Both the position numbers and the translations under genes were made by a program. From Bacteroidales bacterium (GTDB lineage Bacteria > Bacteroidota > Bacteroidia > Bacteroidales > Prolixibacteraceae): DNA of 32,140 nt. The stretch covers positions 1 to 32,140 of the forward strand of contig JAISSS010000070.1 in NCBI GenBank assembly GCA_031272965.1, written 5' to 3'. Numbering within the stretch: position 1 is the stretch's first letter; each line of letters opens with the position of its first letter. Below are positions 15,641 through 29,141 of the stretch, piece after piece. The notes under the pieces were generated by a model. The model was not told the DNA's origin. It searched no databases and saw nothing but the letters and a program-made list of their open reading frames with translations.

Positions 15641-16420
15641 TCACATCTCAGTGCCCTTGTTGATTACAGCAGAGTTGAAGGCGGTCGCTATGCGGCGGGT
15701 TTGGCGGTTCAGGTAGTGCCGTCCGGCGAATGATTTCACCCATTGTATTCCGTAGAGGTGTCCGGCAAGGAACATCTCGTCGGCGGTCGTCAGACTTGCG
15801 AGGGGCAGTTCGCTGACTTCAACCGGCGTCATCCCGGCGGCGGCGATTGCCTCCACAACGGTCTGATTAGCGGGGTCGGCAATGGCGCCACACGACGGCG
15901 CCAGCATTATCACCTCCTCGCCCACAATAATATAGACATTACAGCTGGAAACATTCGAGATATTGTCGGCATTATCGATGTACAGCTTTCTGGGGAGTCT
16001 GTCGGGCAACAACGGGCAGGGCAGGTGGCGGATGTTGAAATCCGGCTCTACATACAGCCCGTTTTCGTGCCAGGCATACTCTTCCGTATCGAAGGCGGTC
16101 ATGTGCAGCATATAGCAGATGCGGCGGTCATCGTCGTGCAGCAGGCGTATTACGACCATTGTACTGCGGTAGAGGCGGTTACGGATTAATGCCCGTCGAA
16201 TCTGGCGCTTCAATTCGGCGCCATCGCGCAGCAGGAACGGGGGGATGTCCGCGCCGAAATCGCAGAGTATTTTGGCCATTTGTTCAATATTCTCGTCCCA
16301 GAACATCAGTTTTGTGCGATTAACGCGCAGTGCGGTCCGCAAAAATACGCGGTCACACATATCCGCCGTCAATATCGGGGCCGCAGCATCGAAGAACTGT
16401 CCGTCGTAAAGCGTAAGCAT
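15641..16420 (-). CDS. Divergent class IV aminotransferase-like protein
   Basis: The 259-residue protein resembles the fold-type IV PLP enzymes (branched-chain and D-amino-acid aminotransferases, aminodeoxychorismate lyase): YDGQFFDAAAPILTADMCDRVF opens the small domain, and VVEAIAAAGMTPVEVSELPLASLTTADEMFLAGHLYGIQ matches the C-terminal part. Between them the family normally has the catalytic lysine and, roughly 35 residues later, EGS/T-x-SN. Here the segment is short: the only candidate lysine is Lys145 in PRKLYIDN, and the EGS position reads VSSCNVYII. The normal reaction is therefore doubtful. I took the ATG at 16420, 7 bases after the upstream gene; a longer form would overlap that gene by 150 bases. 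It is the last gene of the envelope operon and the only one with no export signal. Confidence 0.6.
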   Translation of the reverse strand: MLTLYDGQFFDAAAPILTADMCDRVFLRTALRVNRTKLMFWDENIEQMAKILCDFGADIPPFLLRDGAELKRQIRRALIRNRLYRSTMVVIRLLHDDDRRICYMLHMTAFDTEEYAWHENGLYVEPDFNIRHLPCPLLPDRLPRKLYIDNADNISNVSSCNVYIIVGEEVIMLAPSCGAIADPANQTVVEAIAAAGMTPVEVSELPLASLTTADEMFLAGHLYGIQWVKSFAGRHYLNRQTRRIATAFNSAVINKGTEM

Positions 16421-16427
16421 GACGCGG

Positions 16428-17108
16428 TCAGAAGCCAATTCCGGCACGGACGCCCAGCCCGACAAGGATACCGCTGTAACCCACCGCCCCGAACTTGTCG
16501 AAGCAGGGCTTGTCGCGGTCATAGATGCTGTGGGTATAGCCCGCATAGATGAACAAATCCATAAACAGGACATCTTGCAAGTTCGACTGATAGCCGAAGT
16601 TCACGCGGGCTTCGAGCTTAGTATAGTCCTGCTCGTAGGGGCTTTCCTGCCATGTGGTGAAATTAAGCCCGCTATTGGGGATAAAATCGATGGTCTCGTA
16701 GCCCGTTTTGCGCGATTCCACGTGGTATTTGCCACCACCGATTTCGTAAAACAGATATGTGTTATTTGCCAAAAAACTCTTGTAGCCGCCACTTATGCCG
16801 AAGCCGGAGAGTTCATAGAACTGCTCTTTGCCGGAGAAGTGGTTTGACCACAACTCACCTGTCTGGTCGTCATTGTTATATATCAGGTTGGCTTTTACGG
16901 CGATTTTCCAGAACTTTTCCCGATGATTAATTCGTTTTTCAAAGTCGAACTTTAAGGCTCCGTCGGCGGCTTGAAGCGGGTACCACCCGACAGTGAACTG
17001 CCGTTGTCGCCCCTTGTCGGGATGTTCTTGTGTCTGTGCCTGCAACGCATGGCATGACAGCGCTGTCGATACCGCAATAATCAGGGCCTTAATTATCCTG
17101 TTCTTCAT
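16428..17108 (-). CDS. Exported outer-membrane barrel-like protein of the envelope operon
   Basis: The 226-residue protein has a signal peptide (hydrophobic run ending HALQA-Q near residue 25) followed by alternating beta-strand segments (for example FWKIAVKANLIY, FGISGGYKSF, LEARVNFGYQS) and ends in GLGVRAGIGF, with the terminal phenylalanine typical of proteins inserted by the Bam machinery. It probably forms a beta-barrel in the outer membrane. No named family was recognised beyond that. The start lies inside the end of the preceding LVIVD gene (20-base overlap), and the aminotransferase-like gene follows after 7 bases, so translation is probably coupled along the operon. Confidence 0.7.
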   Translation of the reverse strand: MKNRIIKALIIAVSTALSCHALQAQTQEHPDKGRQRQFTVGWYPLQAADGALKFDFEKRINHREKFWKIAVKANLIYNNDDQTGELWSNHFSGKEQFYELSGFGISGGYKSFLANNTYLFYEIGGGKYHVESRKTGYETIDFIPNSGLNFTTWQESPYEQDYTKLEARVNFGYQSNLQDVLFMDLFIYAGYTHSIYDRDKPCFDKFGAVGYSGILVGLGVRAGIGF

Positions 17109-17904
17109 CGTTGTCCTCCTTTCCTGTTACAGTGATTTTGCTGATTAATTTCAGGGCGTCGCCATTATAGTCGAACTGATAGAATCCGTCGCTGCCGATG
17201 ACGAGCAGTATGCCATTGATGGGGATTACGTCGTAGGTCTGGATATTGCTGACCGCATCATCTTTAAATGAGAGGTCGTCCACCCATACGGGGTCGTCAG
17301 GGGTCGTGATGTCATAGACCTTCAGTCCGTTATCACAGACGAAGAGTTTTGAGCCGTCGATGCCCAGCCCGCGCGGGGAGTTCAGGTTTAGCTGTCGGAT
17401 TTCTCGCGGGCTGCGCGGGTCGGAGATGTCGTAAACTATCATGATATTTGCCTGCGTTCCGCACCATTTGCTTGTGCTGTTGAGAGTTACGTAGGCATAA
17501 TTTCCGGCGGCGACTACGGGGTCGCAGCTGGTGATATGCGACACCATTGCCAGCCGAGTAGGGAACAGCGGTCGCTTGACGTCAAAGATGTACATGCCGT
17601 TGCGCGAGCCGATAAACAGTAGCGTATCAACGGGGAATATGGTCTCTATGCCCTGCTCGAGGATGAGGTCTTTCCCCTGTAAATATACCGGCTTTTCGGG
17701 GATGTGGATGTCGAAGGTCTTCAACGTCAGTTGGTCAACCACATAGAGGCAGGAATCTTTGATGGCGAAACGCGCCATGGAGCCGCCTTTGCCGGCGCCG
17801 CCGCCATCGCCCAGCCCGCCTGCCGAATCATAGCTTGCAGTGGTGGAACACGCCGCTGCAATTGCGGCGAGGACATAAAAAAGATATATTAATGACTTCT
17901 TCAT
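17089..17904 (-). CDS. LVIVD-repeat lipoprotein (C-terminal half of the usual protein)
   Basis: The 271-residue lipoprotein has a signal peptide with a lipobox ending AAIAAAC (Cys19), then a Gly-rich linker (SAGGLGDGGGAGKGG) and beta-propeller-like repeats of the LVIVD family: SCLYVVDQLTLKTFDI, LFIGSRNGMYIFDV, ANIMIVYDISDP, LFVCDNGLKVYDI. The repeats form a surface or periplasmic beta-propeller of unknown ligand. In LVIVD lipoproteins as I know them this Gly-rich linker followed by GGSMARF lies in the middle of one longer chain, so this gene looks like the C-terminal half carried on its own signal peptide, with the N-terminal half encoded just upstream. The C-terminal tail is very acidic (KEDNDEEQDN). 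It overlaps the next gene by 20 bases. Confidence 0.8.
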   Translation of the reverse strand: MKKSLIYLFYVLAAIAAACSTTASYDSAGGLGDGGGAGKGGSMARFAIKDSCLYVVDQLTLKTFDIHIPEKPVYLQGKDLILEQGIETIFPVDTLLFIGSRNGMYIFDVKRPLFPTRLAMVSHITSCDPVVAAGNYAYVTLNSTSKWCGTQANIMIVYDISDPRSPREIRQLNLNSPRGLGIDGSKLFVCDNGLKVYDITTPDDPVWVDDLSFKDDAVSNIQTYDVIPINGILLVIGSDGFYQFDYNGDALKLISKITVTGKEDNDEEQDN

Positions 17905-17916
17905 GATATGCCAGTT

Positions 17917-18447
17917 CTAATTTGTTTGCCGCCAGCCCACCAGTACCAGGTCCGGGGCGAGCTCGCTGTCATTACGGTACGAATAATAGCCTTCGGGTGG
18001 GGTCGGTGCAGGCAATACTTCTTTAATGCGCTCGGTAACTTGCCGTGTTGACAGGTTGAACGCCACAATGTCAACAGCATTATCCAGATACAGGATGCCG
18101 TCTTTCACGGCCATATCCATACATCCTGGGGCGGTGATAAACCCCTCATTAACGGGGTTCTTCGGTTCCGAATTGTTGATTACGTGAACGCCTTTATACT
18201 GCTCGTTGATAAATATATACGGGTTGTAGAAGTATATCTTGCCGGTGGTATGCAATGGCGTCGGCGCGATATATTTTACTGACTGTTCCAGCTCGGCGCG
18301 TGTCATATATACGGGGGCATACACGGGCGCCTCCTCACTGTTGACCACGTCAGAGGCGGTCAGCACAATCATCATGGCAACGGTCAGGCCTGCAGAAATG
18401 CCTCGCCTCACTGTCGCCGCAAACTTTGTCTCTGGATACTGTTTCAT
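17917..18447 (-). CDS. LVIVD-repeat exported protein (N-terminal half of the usual protein)
   Basis: The 176-residue protein has an N-terminal basic/hydrophobic signal (AGLTVAMMIVLTASD); the position where a lipobox cysteine would sit is Asp, so it is probably not lipidated. The rest (YMTRAELEQSVKYIAP, TGKIYFYNPYIFINEQYKGVHVINN, DMAVKDGILYLDNAVDIVAFNL) matches the N-terminal repeats of LVIVD lipoproteins. It stops after LVLVGWRQTN, where the family chain usually continues into a Gly-rich linker; the remaining repeats are encoded 12 bases downstream. It may fold with that product as a two-piece propeller. A TACTTTTG motif overlaps the start region, but the tight spacing to the PEGA gene (27 bases) argues for read-through. 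Confidence 0.75.
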   Translation of the reverse strand: MKQYPETKFAATVRRGISAGLTVAMMIVLTASDVVNSEEAPVYAPVYMTRAELEQSVKYIAPTPLHTTGKIYFYNPYIFINEQYKGVHVINNSEPKNPVNEGFITAPGCMDMAVKDGILYLDNAVDIVAFNLSTRQVTERIKEVLPAPTPPEGYYSYRNDSELAPDLVLVGWRQTN

Positions 18448-18474
18448 GATACAAAAGTAATAATAATTTTCGGG

Positions 18475-20202
18475 TTATTTGGAACTCGCGTCAAATGACA
18501 GCGTAAATACCATCTTGTTTTGCTTGAGCGAATAGCTGTCGGGGTTATCCGACAGGTCGGGTATGCCCTTGCTGAAGGTGATGCTTAACTGAATCCCTTT
18601 GATATTTAAGCCGCCGCCATATTCGGTGGCGTAGTTAAAGCGCTTGTATTTCTGGGTCAGTCCCGCATCGACATACGACCACCAGTCGGTGTTGTACATA
18701 TTTTCCTTATCATAGCGTTCTTCAGAATCCTTTGTTTCAAAGTAGTCTTTTCGGGCGCTGAATCCGTAATCCAGTCCCAATCCGCCGAAAGCGAATATGC
18801 AGAAGTTACGGGCCAGCTGTATGCGGTATTCCAGATGCAGCGGCACATATACGGTATGGTCGATAAAGCGCGTAAAGGAATCGTCATCGTAGGTATGTCC
18901 TTTCCAATAGGCGTTCCAATAGAGGCCGGAATTGAGGCATACGCCCCAGAACAGGTGCGGTTCTACGCGCAACCCCAGCTGGATGCCGGGCAATATCTTG
19001 TCGGGCGATTCGCCGTCAACCCAAAAGCCGTATTTGTCGGCGGGATTGCCGGGCCATTCCTCAATCCACCGCTTGTATGTGAAGCCCATGCCTATTCCGA
19101 TAGGGCTGACCTTCATCTCGTTAGGATGCCAGCCCGTGCTGTATTCGGCTTTTGGTTTGGGAATTTTCACTATAAACGACGAGTTTGATGCGCTGACAGT
19201 AATAGCTTTTTCGACAGTTTGTCCCCCCGATGTAACCCGAAGCAGGTGGGTGCCGTAGGCTATCTCGCCGGCAAAGGGGGTGTCGCCAATATATTCGCCG
19301 TCAAGCTCTATGCGGGCGCCATGTATATTGGCTTCAATATCAACGAGTTTCTTCTTGCTGACATTGAGTTTGAAGGTGCTCTCATTGACGTCGGCAAAGT
19401 TCTTTTCAAGGGCGTCGCTTTCGGTATCCGACCGTGCTTCTATCTTATGATATTCAAGGGACAACTCAATATTCACGGGGGTTATACCGACCTTCTCCCC
19501 GTCAACATACAGGGTGGCGCCGGTAGGAACGCTCGTGAAGGTGAATGTTTTTGAGGAAATCATTACGAAGCTGATACTGCGGGCGCTCGCTTCGGTAATC
19601 TCAATGGTCTTTTCCCGTATTTCTTTGTCCAATTCGGCGCGTACCTTATGCTCTCCGTATGGCACTTTGAGGACACTCAGCCCGCTGTCGGAGGTCTTCC
19701 CCTTATAATCGCTGTCTAAATAGATTGCGGCTCCTGCGGGACGGCTAATAAACGTCAGGTCTGCGGTTTCTCCGTTGGTGAGGCGTATTTCATAAGTCTT
19801 TCCGCCTTCAAGGCGGAGGGCAACCTTATTGGATTTGCCAAATGAGGGATGCGAAATCACCAAATCGGTTTCCTTGCCGGTAATATGCACCCACATCTCG
19901 CCGGCCAGCGGCTTCTTTTCGACTATCTGAATGGCGGCGTCAGTATGGAATTCCAGCTTCTCGATATCTGTTTTACTGATTTTTTCGATTCGGATTTTCA
20001 GCAGAGCACAGAGGATTCCGTTGTCGTCATATTTCTTGCCGGTTATCAGTGCGGTGAGGTCGCCCATATCCAATGCGCCGTTATTGGCGGTTTCGGCCTC
20101 GTCTTTACTGATTTGGCGGAACGATTTTTCATCTATCACTAATTGAGCATATGTGCATATTGTAATAAATATCAACAGCAGTGTCAACAACGGTTTTTTC
20201 AT
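18475..20202 (-). CDS. PEGA-domain protein with C-terminal outer-membrane barrel
   Basis: The 575-residue protein has a signal peptide (1-19, cleavage near TYA-Q), an N-terminal domain of about 120 residues, and three PEGA-like beta modules at roughly 147-213, 219-280 and 286-348. Each has the pattern of hydrophobic strand, P-x-GA-x-(I/L)-Y-(L/V)-D-G, then a turn and a second strand. The last 210 residues (SPIGIGMGFTYKRW to the end) are strand-rich with a closing MVFTLSFDASS and look like an outer-membrane barrel. PEGA modules are often found in surface-layer or cell-wall-associated proteins, so this may tether a periplasmic partner to the outer membrane. It begins 6 bases after the LPP20-like gene. 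No enzymatic motif is seen. Confidence 0.8.
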   Translation of the reverse strand: MKKPLLTLLLIFITICTYAQLVIDEKSFRQISKDEAETANNGALDMGDLTALITGKKYDDNGILCALLKIRIEKISKTDIEKLEFHTDAAIQIVEKKPLAGEMWVHITGKETDLVISHPSFGKSNKVALRLEGGKTYEIRLTNGETADLTFISRPAGAAIYLDSDYKGKTSDSGLSVLKVPYGEHKVRAELDKEIREKTIEITEASARSISFVMISSKTFTFTSVPTGATLYVDGEKVGITPVNIELSLEYHKIEARSDTESDALEKNFADVNESTFKLNVSKKKLVDIEANIHGARIELDGEYIGDTPFAGEIAYGTHLLRVTSGGQTVEKAITVSASNSSFIVKIPKPKAEYSTGWHPNEMKVSPIGIGMGFTYKRWIEEWPGNPADKYGFWVDGESPDKILPGIQLGLRVEPHLFWGVCLNSGLYWNAYWKGHTYDDDSFTRFIDHTVYVPLHLEYRIQLARNFCIFAFGGLGLDYGFSARKDYFETKDSEERYDKENMYNTDWWSYVDAGLTQKYKRFNYATEYGGGLNIKGIQLSITFSKGIPDLSDNPDSYSLKQNKMVFTLSFDASSK

Positions 20203-20208
20203 GGTATA

Positions 20209-22068
20209 TTATTCTGATTTTATCGTCTGATTCAGGAAGCTGAACGCGGTAAAGTCGGGGTTCTTATCCCGTTGCCATACCCGCACTTTGATGAGGGGCT
20301 GTTCGTGGCGCAGGTCAACGGCCAGCGTCAGGAATCCGGTGTCGCCATAGTTATTGGAATAATAATCCTGCTTGATTTGGATGGCATAGAGGCCGTCGAA
20401 GTCGCCGGTAGCTTTGACCACCTGATTCTCGTCGAAGCGCAGGTTTATATATTCCTTGCTGGCAAAGCTGGCCCGCAGTTTCTCGATGAACTGTTCTTTG
20501 GGCATTTTGTTATACCGCACTTCCTCGTCAGTGTAGTTCTGCAATCCGGTGTCGGTGGTTTTGGTGCGGGTGATGACCGTTCCGGTGATAATCAGGGCAT
20601 CGTCAGAAAAGATGCTCTCTAAATAGTCGATGCGCTTGAGGGCGTATGCCGTCTGATAGTCTTCGAGGAAATTGACGATGGTCATCCGCTCTTCCAGACT
20701 CCACTTTTTGTTGATGGTCAGGATGTCTTCTTCCGCGCGTTTTGTCAGGGTGAAGGCCAGCGATTCTATTTTTTTGTCGGCATTAAAGCGGAAAGTAACG
20801 TCTTCTACGAACCCGCGATTGCCGGAGAAGCGGAACTGCATGGGGATGCTGCGGCACAGTACCATATCTCCGCAGTCAACAAAGCGGTATTGTGGCGTCT
20901 GAATGATGGATGCGTTGCCGTTATGCACCAGCTCGTTGAACATTTTGTAGCCTTCGTCGGTAAACAGCCCGCTGACGGTCTCGTATTTTTTCGTGCGGAT
21001 AGCCTTCTCAATGGCTGCCATAATTCCGGTATAGTCAGGGGTGGATTCGACAGGGGTGAATGCCACCTCATTTTTTTCTATCGTGCTGACCTGCGCCTGT
21101 ACGAGCGATGGTTCCTTTGGATCCTTGCCCTGCTTGAGGCGCTTGTCAAGCGGAACCGACAGCACGGCAGTAGCCGGAGTCGTGGGCGCGAGCATTTGCA
21201 TAACCAGATACAGTTCCGGGTCGAGGTTTTTGGCCTGATTAGTGAACAGTGTTTCACAACGGAAACGTATTTCTTTTGAAGGCAGCGCCTCAAAGTCGGC
21301 CACAGCCCGTCCGTCTTTCACTGTTGACGGCCCCACATAGCGCATGTTGTTGTGATAGCTGTAGTCGAGGTTAGCAACCATGGCGTCCTTATAGAGCACA
21401 TCCATACTCACCTGATAGCGGTTCAGCGGGTCACCGGTCTCTTCGACGTGGACAACCGACACTTTTAGATTCTTTAATATTTCGTTAATTTTACTGTCAA
21501 GCCACAGCTTCGCATCAACGGACTGCCCGTTGTCTTCCACGTTCAGGCGGTCCGGATACGGGTATGAGTGCAGCAGAATCAGCCCCCAGTTATAGTAGCG
21601 CATGGCGTCCCCGATTTGCATATCTGCCTCTTTTTTACGGCCGAAGTCAATGTAGTTCAGTATTTTGCTGCGGCGGGTCTCAAAGATTGCCGCCACATCG
21701 GCCTTGCTCATCGCCCGCAGTACGCGAAATTCGGGCTTCTCGTCGAGGATATACTGCTCCACATTCGGTAACGTGGCCACAGAATAGGTCTGCATGCTGA
21801 TGCTGAAATCTTCCTTGACACCGGCCTCTGTTTCACGGACGACATAATCGCCTGTACTCTTTACTGATACGGTAATCTGGCTGATTAATGCCTCCAATGC
21901 GTGTTTATCGGCCGCATCGAGCGTCGCGCCGGAGCCCTCGCCATACAGATAATCGGCAGATTCCTTTATCCGCTTTGCCCGCTCTTTGAGGCTTTGGCCT
22001 GATACGCCCCCGACTGTGGCGACTATCACAAGCGCTGTAATCACCGTCCTGCTGAAAATGTTGGTCAT
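20209..22068 (-). CDS. LPP20-like exported protein, first gene of the envelope operon
   Basis: The 619-residue protein has an N-terminal signal (TVITALVIVATVGGVSG-Q) without a lipobox cysteine. Residues about 26-120 (KERAKRIKESADYLYGEG...ALEALISQITVSVKS) resemble the LPP20/FlgT-N type domain found in exported proteins. The middle is an unassigned beta-rich region. The last 190 residues, beginning near LTINKKWSLEERMTIVNFLEDYQ, look like an NTF2/SnoaL-type cone (YALKRIDYLESIFSDDALIITG). No catalytic residues are recognisable. It heads a six-gene run with a promoter-like element upstream and is followed after 6 bases by the PEGA/barrel gene. It is probably periplasmic and may be a scaffold or assembly factor, which is inference. 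Confidence 0.7.
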   Translation of the reverse strand: MTNIFSRTVITALVIVATVGGVSGQSLKERAKRIKESADYLYGEGSGATLDAADKHALEALISQITVSVKSTGDYVVRETEAGVKEDFSISMQTYSVATLPNVEQYILDEKPEFRVLRAMSKADVAAIFETRRSKILNYIDFGRKKEADMQIGDAMRYYNWGLILLHSYPYPDRLNVEDNGQSVDAKLWLDSKINEILKNLKVSVVHVEETGDPLNRYQVSMDVLYKDAMVANLDYSYHNNMRYVGPSTVKDGRAVADFEALPSKEIRFRCETLFTNQAKNLDPELYLVMQMLAPTTPATAVLSVPLDKRLKQGKDPKEPSLVQAQVSTIEKNEVAFTPVESTPDYTGIMAAIEKAIRTKKYETVSGLFTDEGYKMFNELVHNGNASIIQTPQYRFVDCGDMVLCRSIPMQFRFSGNRGFVEDVTFRFNADKKIESLAFTLTKRAEEDILTINKKWSLEERMTIVNFLEDYQTAYALKRIDYLESIFSDDALIITGTVITRTKTTDTGLQNYTDEEVRYNKMPKEQFIEKLRASFASKEYINLRFDENQVVKATGDFDGLYAIQIKQDYYSNNYGDTGFLTLAVDLRHEQPLIKVRVWQRDKNPDFTAFSFLNQTIKSE

Positions 22069-22088: not shown

Positions 22089-22097
22089 GCAAATATA
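22089..22097 (-). promoter_or_regulatory. Promoter -7 element of the envelope operon
   Basis: On the minus strand TATATTTGC (22097-22089) matches TAnnTTTGC, 20 bases before the LPP20-like ATG. It is the only good candidate upstream of the six-gene run. No -33 TTG is clear. Confidence 0.55.
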
Positions 22098-22147: not shown

Positions 22148-22184
22148 CAAAAAAAATAAAAAAGGCAGCTCCGAAAAGCTGCCT
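22148..22184 (-). terminator. Rho-independent terminator after frr
   Basis: On the minus strand AGGCAGCT (22184-22177) pairs with AGCTGCCT (22170-22163) around a six-base loop, giving a perfect 8-bp GC-rich stem. It is followed by a long T-rich tract (22163-22148). It separates frr from the envelope operon. Confidence 0.85.
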
Positions 22185-22238
22185 CAAGCCATGAAAACAA
22201 TTAAACAATGTTTAGAAAACAGAAAATCCTAATATCTT

Positions 22239-28737: not shown

Positions 28738-28911
28738 ATGATAAAGAGAGAAACATATCTGTCGAAGTTACGTGAATTGAAAGATATTCAGATAATTAAA
28801 GTCGTGGCGGGAGTGCGTCGCTGCGGTAAGTCCACCTTACTCGAACTGTACCGCGACGAGTTACTTCAGTTGGGCGTCGCTGCCGAAAACATTCAGTTTT
28901 ACAACCTCGAA
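28738..28911 (+). pseudogene. Truncated AAA-type ATPase (N-terminal fragment)
   Basis: The first 58 codons match the start of the Bacteroidales ATP-binding proteins of the AAA_14/DUF4143 type: MIKRETYLSKLREL, then VVAGVRRCGKSTLLELYRDELL with a Walker A (GVRRCGKST) and IQFYNLE. Family members continue for several hundred residues with Walker B, sensor and a DUF4143 nuclease-like part; here homology stops near base 28911 and the frame runs 22 unrelated codons to a TAA at 28978-28980. The junction is with sequence that reads as the 5' part of a group II intron on the opposite strand. The remnant cannot be a working ATPase. Confidence 0.75.
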
Positions 28912-29141
28912 GTTATCGTTGTCCGATATTTTCTGCATTTTGTTACTTGCGGTAAATTTCATTCTAATCTCACTTATTAAAGTTCGACCCTTCGTCTGCC
29001 AACTCGTAGCACACTACTATGGTCTCTGCTGACTTCTTACGGCAAGTTTTGCTCCGAGTTTCCGAATTTTCTTCTTACCCTCGTCCGTAAGACCTCACGT
29101 GGTAAAGTTTATATCATTCTCCCCATCTATGCACGTCGCAC
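28912..29141 (-). mobile_element. Group II intron 5' remnant (domain I and start of the maturase frame)
   Basis: Read on the minus strand the segment starts GTGCGAC at 29141, fitting the group II intron 5' consensus GTGYG. It contains CTTACGG...CCGTAAG pairing arms and a GAAGTCAGCAGAGACCATAGTAG segment followed by GAAGGGTCGAAC, a sequence type I know from just before the reverse-transcriptase gene of bacterial group II introns. An ATG near 28960 opens a short frame (MKFTASNKMQK...) that may be the start of the intron-encoded protein. The rest of the intron, including the reverse transcriptase and domains V and VI, is missing; the ATPase fragment begins instead. The 5' end lies directly after the T-tract of the pckA terminator, the usual target of class C introns, though the class is not established. 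Confidence 0.6.

Follow-up and report, generated by a model that had tools for sequence, protein, structure and literature searches.

The stretch analysed here, a window of 32,140 nucleotides (nt) from a Bacteroidales genome of the family Prolixibacteraceae (contig JAISSS010000070.1, assembly GCA_031272965.1), carries six open reading frames (ORFs) in a row on its minus strand, between positions 15641 and 22068. We label them g1 to g6, with g1 first in transcription order. The first-pass annotation of this DNA had read the run as a single six-part envelope assembly. Comparison with related genomes leads us to a different view, namely that the run is likely a local neighbouring of two independently conserved envelope cassettes, cassette A (g1 and g2) and cassette B (g3, g4 and g5), together with the unrelated gene g6. 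Cassette A would be an outer-membrane and peptidoglycan part, and cassette B a two-chain propeller of the LVIVD type.

The six genes in related genomes

In the sampled relatives, the six genes are not one system. The g1 loci studied were the best 80 of at least 545 confirmed places, and profiles of g3, g4, g5 and g6 found no match in any of the 80. In the other direction, profiles of g1 and g6 found no match in 46 loci of the cassette B type (L170-L215), many of which are only about 3.5 kb long. These 46 include the window's own run (L191), an unsplit gene (L215) and a locus where a g5-like gene stands alone (L185), and one genome is present twice (L173 and L186). The set of same-family genomes holds no other member of the window's genus. 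In one same-family genome (L021), an unsplit LVIVD gene lies 1.2 kb from g1, a closeness that we take as chance. The gene-neighbourhood comparison proposed in the first-pass annotation thus recovers two sub-cassettes, each conserved in its own right, and does not bring the six families together.

The arrangement in the window is what speaks for one envelope assembly of all six genes, with small-molecule input from the aminotransferase-like g6. All six ORFs were found on the minus strand with the close spacing first described (gaps of 6 nt between g1 and g2, 27 nt between g2 and g3 and 12 nt between g3 and g4, and a 20-nt overlap of g4 with g5), and five of the six proteins are exported. We nevertheless regard a single assembly as very unlikely, given the missing relatives in both sets of loci and a g6 family that adjoins an AlgH/YqgE gene and a rhomboid gene and lacks the catalytic lysine. 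The shared strand tells little, because the flanking genes, frr and pyrH upstream and reductase genes downstream (all named from sequence), lie on the minus strand as well. The earlier description of exported envelope proteins holds for g1 to g5 in domains and export signals, with the qualification that g5 is a likely barrel whose signal peptide was read only by eye. Two further origins were considered and dropped: a defence system, since PADLOC matched none of the six proteins at E<=0.01, and a phage, since no g1 relatives were confirmed in the viral collection. Coordinates of the genes and neighbouring signals are collected in Table 1.

Table 1. Genes of the run and nearby sequence signals, in window coordinates
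Feature	Description	Cassette	Position	Strand
g1	Exported, 619 residues; LPP20 ~34-121, NTF2-like ~343-450 and ~458-602	A	20209-22068	minus
g2	Exported, 575 residues; N-terminal PEGA array, C-terminal 8-stranded barrel of OmpA/OprF type ~363-575	A	18475-20202	minus
g3	Exported N-terminal part (176 residues) of an LVIVD-type protein, without lipobox Cys	B	17917-18447	minus
g4	C-terminal part (271 residues) of the same LVIVD-type protein; own lipoprotein signal, Cys19	B	17089-17904	minus
g5	Exported, 226 residues, Phe at end; probable outer-membrane barrel, partner of g3-g4	B	16428-17108	minus
g6	Class IV aminotransferase-like, without catalytic lysine; probable start 16420		15641-16420	minus
Hairpin	Terminator-like, between frr and g1; 10 pairs, T-tract		22162-22185	minus
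Box	TATATTTG, -7-like, upstream of g1		22090-22097	minus
Box	TACTTTTG, -7-like, at the cassette A/B junction (g2-g3); single motif, weak		18452-18459	minus

Cassette A and its partners

A g2-family gene is present in 63 of the 80 g1 loci (61 by BLAST) and lies directly downstream of g1 in 38. LPP20-like genes occur in 37 of the same loci and transglutaminase-motif genes in 22. Six loci of near relatives (L032, L033, L035, L036, L037 and L046) show the full order of an LPP20-like gene, g1, g2 and a gene of about 500 codons. The product of this last gene, which lies outside the window and which we call c2, has a transglutaminase-type Cys-His-Asp motif that does not vary; five aligned rows share an invariant DCEDR and a His and also carry a DPT-type motif. 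Transglut_core matched two of the four c2 proteins tested, at E 0.06-0.15 and so below the cut-off, and a c2 profile matched none of the solved structures. In the window, the LPP20-like and transglutaminase-motif genes are not beside g1 and g2. Another contig of the same genome (C89; L218 7900-10932) carries an LPP20-like lipoprotein, a 308-residue protein and a 495-residue transglutaminase-motif protein in a row, so the module is present here in two pieces. In two other loci (L050 11826-21754 and L084 11857-21329), g1 is followed by PEGA genes of the g2 family in tandem, in about five copies.

The g1 protein combines an LPP20-like start with two NTF2-like regions, as the first-pass annotation had supposed in calling it an exported LPP20-like protein with an NTF2 part. 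The LPP20 match of the window sequence taken alone is below the cut-off (17.2 against 25.9 bits). Across the family, LPP20 (PF02169) is found in 43 of 56 members at E<=0.01, and positions 24-84 of a g1 profile match the Helicobacter pylori LPP20 lipoprotein (PDB 4kzs) at E=1e-5. Of 81 full-length g1 relatives, 55 were used. Unlike that lipoprotein, g1 is much longer and has a signal peptide, read by eye, without a lipobox Cys, and so lacks the lipoprotein signal of the LPP20 family. A search with the single g1 sequence found relatives in 13 of 140 same-family genomes, and long g1 forms are present in six of the 13. Among solved structures the single sequence found none. The structure model of g1 has a mean predicted local distance difference test score (pLDDT) of 84.8 and a predicted template-modelling score (pTM) of 0.79. 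Its C-terminal part matches NTF2 folds broadly, including those of the L,D-carboxypeptidases Csd6, Bd1075 and Pgp2; the match to Csd6 (4xzz; Z 14.6, root-mean-square deviation (rmsd) 3.9, 154 residues aligned) is level with those to general NTF2 proteins. The best named family for this last domain is Cds6_C (Pfam, 23.1 bits against a cut-off of 27, E=9.4e-5), which is found in 14 of the 56 members at E<=0.01. The last domain shares its fold with the three enzymes. Unlike them, g1 bears LPP20 and another NTF2-like region, and no L,D-carboxypeptidase domain was matched by Pfam in g1 at E<=0.1 or among the families of the 56 members at E<=0.01. In Pgp2, a pocket of the NTF2-like domain binds peptidoglycan (PMC8038945).

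The description of g2 as a PEGA and barrel protein is well borne out. PEGA (PF08308) matches g2 in three stretches with 78.4 bits, against a cut-off of 20.8. The model (mean pLDDT 76.9, pTM 0.37; nine relatives aligned for the fold) shows strand-rich PEGA domains followed by a barrel of eight strands within residues 368-572. This C-terminal part superimposes on OprF (4rlc; Z 16.5, rmsd 2.5, 127 aligned) and on OmpA (1qjp; Z 15.8, rmsd 3.0, 128 aligned), and it also matches PagL and OmpW. As in OmpA and OprF, an eight-stranded outer-membrane barrel is linked to a periplasmic part; in g2, however, the periplasmic part is a PEGA array at the N-terminus in place of the OmpA C-terminal domain, and the barrel forms the C-terminal end. 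Even-stranded barrels of this type keep both ends in the periplasm, and the PEGA arm of g2 should therefore face that compartment.

These features suggest that cassette A is likely a tether between the outer membrane and peptidoglycan, and that it would serve as the corresponding part of a larger Bacteroidales module with LPP20-like and exported transglutaminase-motif proteins. In such a module, the eight-stranded barrel would place g2 in the outer membrane, with the barrel ends and the PEGA arm in the periplasm. The g1 protein would lie beneath it, its LPP20 domain providing for assembly at the membrane and its NTF2-type pockets binding a peptidoglycan-like ligand.

An alternative role for g1 and g2 is suggested by six further neighbourhoods (L004, L005 and L026-L029), where g2 and the NTF2 domain of g1 have relatives. 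In L004 (8309-17606) and L026 (8858-18205), the operons with the NTF2 relatives also encode a Tubulin_2 protein (PF13809; E=1.9e-61 in L004), an LPP20-like protein and a pair of membrane proteins. In L005 (4272-16394) and L027-L029, they stand with PEGA proteins in a long conserved operon whose other products include FHA proteins, a PP2C phosphatase and a MORN-tailed Ser/Thr kinase. By analogy, g1 and g2 could be an envelope sensor akin to these kinase/FHA/PP2C or tubulin-like operons. The g1 homologues in these neighbourhoods lack the LPP20 part, however, and Tubulin_2 gave no match in the one genome at issue here (84% complete), where kinase partners were not searched for; rings were found in 4 of 14 in the control of that search. 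We consider a signalling role unlikely and retain the tether as the preferred reading of cassette A.

Cassette B, a divided LVIVD protein

The two genes that the first-pass annotation had called separate LVIVD propeller proteins align to the N- and C-terminal parts of one 431-residue LVIVD-type protein. As judged from this alignment, g3 and g4 are two parts of a single protein of about 430 residues, made as separately exported chains. LVIVD (PF08309) scores 16.4 bits in g4 alone, against a cut-off of 20.2, and is found in 13 of 14 members of the g4 family at E<=0.1 (best 1.5e-15) and in 1 of 13 members of the g3 family. Compared with LVIVD surface proteins, whose unsplit lipoprotein form of about 430 residues they jointly cover, g3 and g4 differ in being two exported chains, in carrying the lipid anchor on the second and in standing beside a g5-type gene.

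The split is old and kept across families. With a profile of the short g3 proteins, searched against 393 genomes of the order, the short N-part gene was found in 28 other genomes from 23 families, and the C-part gene comes directly after it in all 28 (divided over two frames in L201). A g5-like gene follows in 21 of these; of the seven loci without it, five are shorter, and two, from the same family, show none. Within the window's own family, 15 of 139 other genomes hold the split, all 15 with g3 (shortened by unread bases in L184) and 14 with g5; these loci were chosen by open-frame length, and two shortened matches (G077 and G087) were left out. The genes that flank the trio differ between groups, while g3, g4 and g5 stay together. 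Near the start, a lipobox-type Cys is the rule in unsplit proteins (29 of 31) and in C-parts (40 of 41). Few N-parts have one (9 of 41, including two doubtful cases), and many show LSGF or a similar sequence at the lipobox place.

In the window, the stop of g3 is in frame with the start of g4 and four codons away from it, as expected if an in-frame TAG had cut one LVIVD gene and left two relics. A broken gene is hardly credible all the same: the break falls at about the same point in the 28 genomes of the order and the 15 of the same family, the lipoprotein signal is kept on the second part, and several genomes with the split also have an unsplit relative.

The direction of the change is a separate matter. 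In an unrooted tree of the C-parts, a single branch (97/84) separates 30 unsplit rows from the 41 split rows; one further unsplit row with a very long branch (L231) was set aside, and the bootstrap had not settled. The split state could be the older one, with the unsplit protein formed by fusion and loss of the second signal. That one branch parts the two states, with the unsplit rows as the supported side, agrees with this order of events. Nothing decisive opposes it, and since the tree gives no direction we rate a fusion origin as quite possible, somewhat short of even chances. The g4 of the window groups with other families and not with its own, which may reflect transfer or an unusual genus. 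In a same-family genome (L170 7320-12686), cassette B lies near gltD-like and reductase genes that are 72-73% identical to the two downstream of the run described here.

The g5 protein, which has a signal peptide by eye and ends in Phe, is likely a barrel. It matched no database family, and its profile found no solved relatives. Homology with the g2 barrel was rejected, as the hhalign match, with a probability of 11%, covers 26 columns that lie outside that barrel. In two loci (L172 3037-4374 and L242 223-1673), two g5-like genes stand in tandem after the split pair.

We propose that g3 is secreted to the periplasm, that g4 is lipidated, and that the two chains rejoin there into one LVIVD propeller; the rejoining is inferred because the parts complement one another and pair constantly. 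The lipid of g4 would keep the propeller beside the g5 barrel. By eye, g3 has about two repeat units and g4 about five, and a g4 profile found only weak matches among solved structures (best E=0.0085). No blade number is claimed from the repeat profile, in which g3 does not rise above shuffled g3. That the Bacteroidales propeller is an obligate two-chain form, anchored by its second chain and closed into a ring in the periplasm beside a dedicated outer-membrane barrel, is an idea whose chances we see as evenly balanced.

The last gene, the flanks and the meaning of the run

As listed, g6 starts at an ATG at 16573, 146 nt into g5. The true start is probably the ATG at 16420, because the alignment of its relatives begins there; this gives a protein of 259 residues and a gap of 7 nt after g5. 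Aminotran_4 (PF01063) matches g6 with 32.4 bits, above the cut-off of 28.5, and g6-like matches at E<=1e-5 occur in 67 of 140 same-family genomes, although some of these matches may fall outside the g6 subfamily. A search with the single sequence found no solved relatives. In 18 loci of g6 relatives, a rhomboid-type gene is present in 17 and a facing AlgH/YqgE gene in 17, the misses falling at contig ends, and some also have a HAD phosphatase gene; these names were assigned from sequence. Class IV aminotransferases bind pyridoxal phosphate (PLP) through a Schiff-base lysine. The lysine of Escherichia coli PabC (LAGIK) aligns in phmmer with an Asp in one relative (L122), and in contrast to PabC and the branched-chain enzymes none of 17 relatives has a Lys at that position, while g6 has lost the whole stretch. 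On these grounds g6 is probably a dead relative of the class IV aminotransferases that moved into the run. The initial suspicion that a PLP-like protein was out of place here was well founded, as its family belongs to the AlgH/YqgE neighbourhood.

The run was said to be bounded by the frr terminator and preceded by one promoter. A hairpin with a T-tract does follow frr, although terminator-like hairpin sites in the region are not more numerous than chance. A TANNTTTG box, which we liken to the Bacteroidetes -7 consensus, does precede g1. Such boxes are abundant, with 39 in window positions 1-32140 against 17.6 expected (none of 100 shuffles reached 39), and another lies between g2 and g3, so a single promoter for the run is not secure. 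Elsewhere in the window, an 80-residue ORF (28738-28980) resembles by eye the start of an AAA-type ATPase and is likely a remnant.

Several observations weigh against our reading of the run and of its two cassettes. Cassettes A and B may be co-transcribed in this genome, and in 42 of the 80 loci g1 is not followed directly by g2. The NTF2 fold is common to many enzymes and binders, and the peptidoglycan role suggested for g1 draws on a below-cut-off Cds6_C match and on context. The pTM of the g2 model leaves the placement of the PEGA arm relative to the barrel unfixed. For cassette B, g3 scores no better against the g4 repeat profile than shuffled g3 can, and the g3-g4 profile comparison gives E=1.8e-4 with a probability of 49%.

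Bacteroidales are major gut bacteria, and many parts of their envelope still lack a name. The literature, covered incompletely, yielded nothing on split LVIVD propellers, on the pairing of LPP20 with PEGA or on PEGA in Bacteroides. No new six-part machine emerges, and to that extent the run is ordinary; its interest lies in two widely kept, unnamed envelope cassettes. What had looked like a six-gene mystery operon resolves into two units that are open to test and occur in many families. Cassette A offers a concrete hypothesis for a link between the outer membrane and peptidoglycan, and cassette B presents a repeat protein that has long been kept in two pieces, the second of which begins with the lipid anchor. 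If the two-chain form is real, the propeller would perhaps open and close around a ligand, or report the arrival of both chains.

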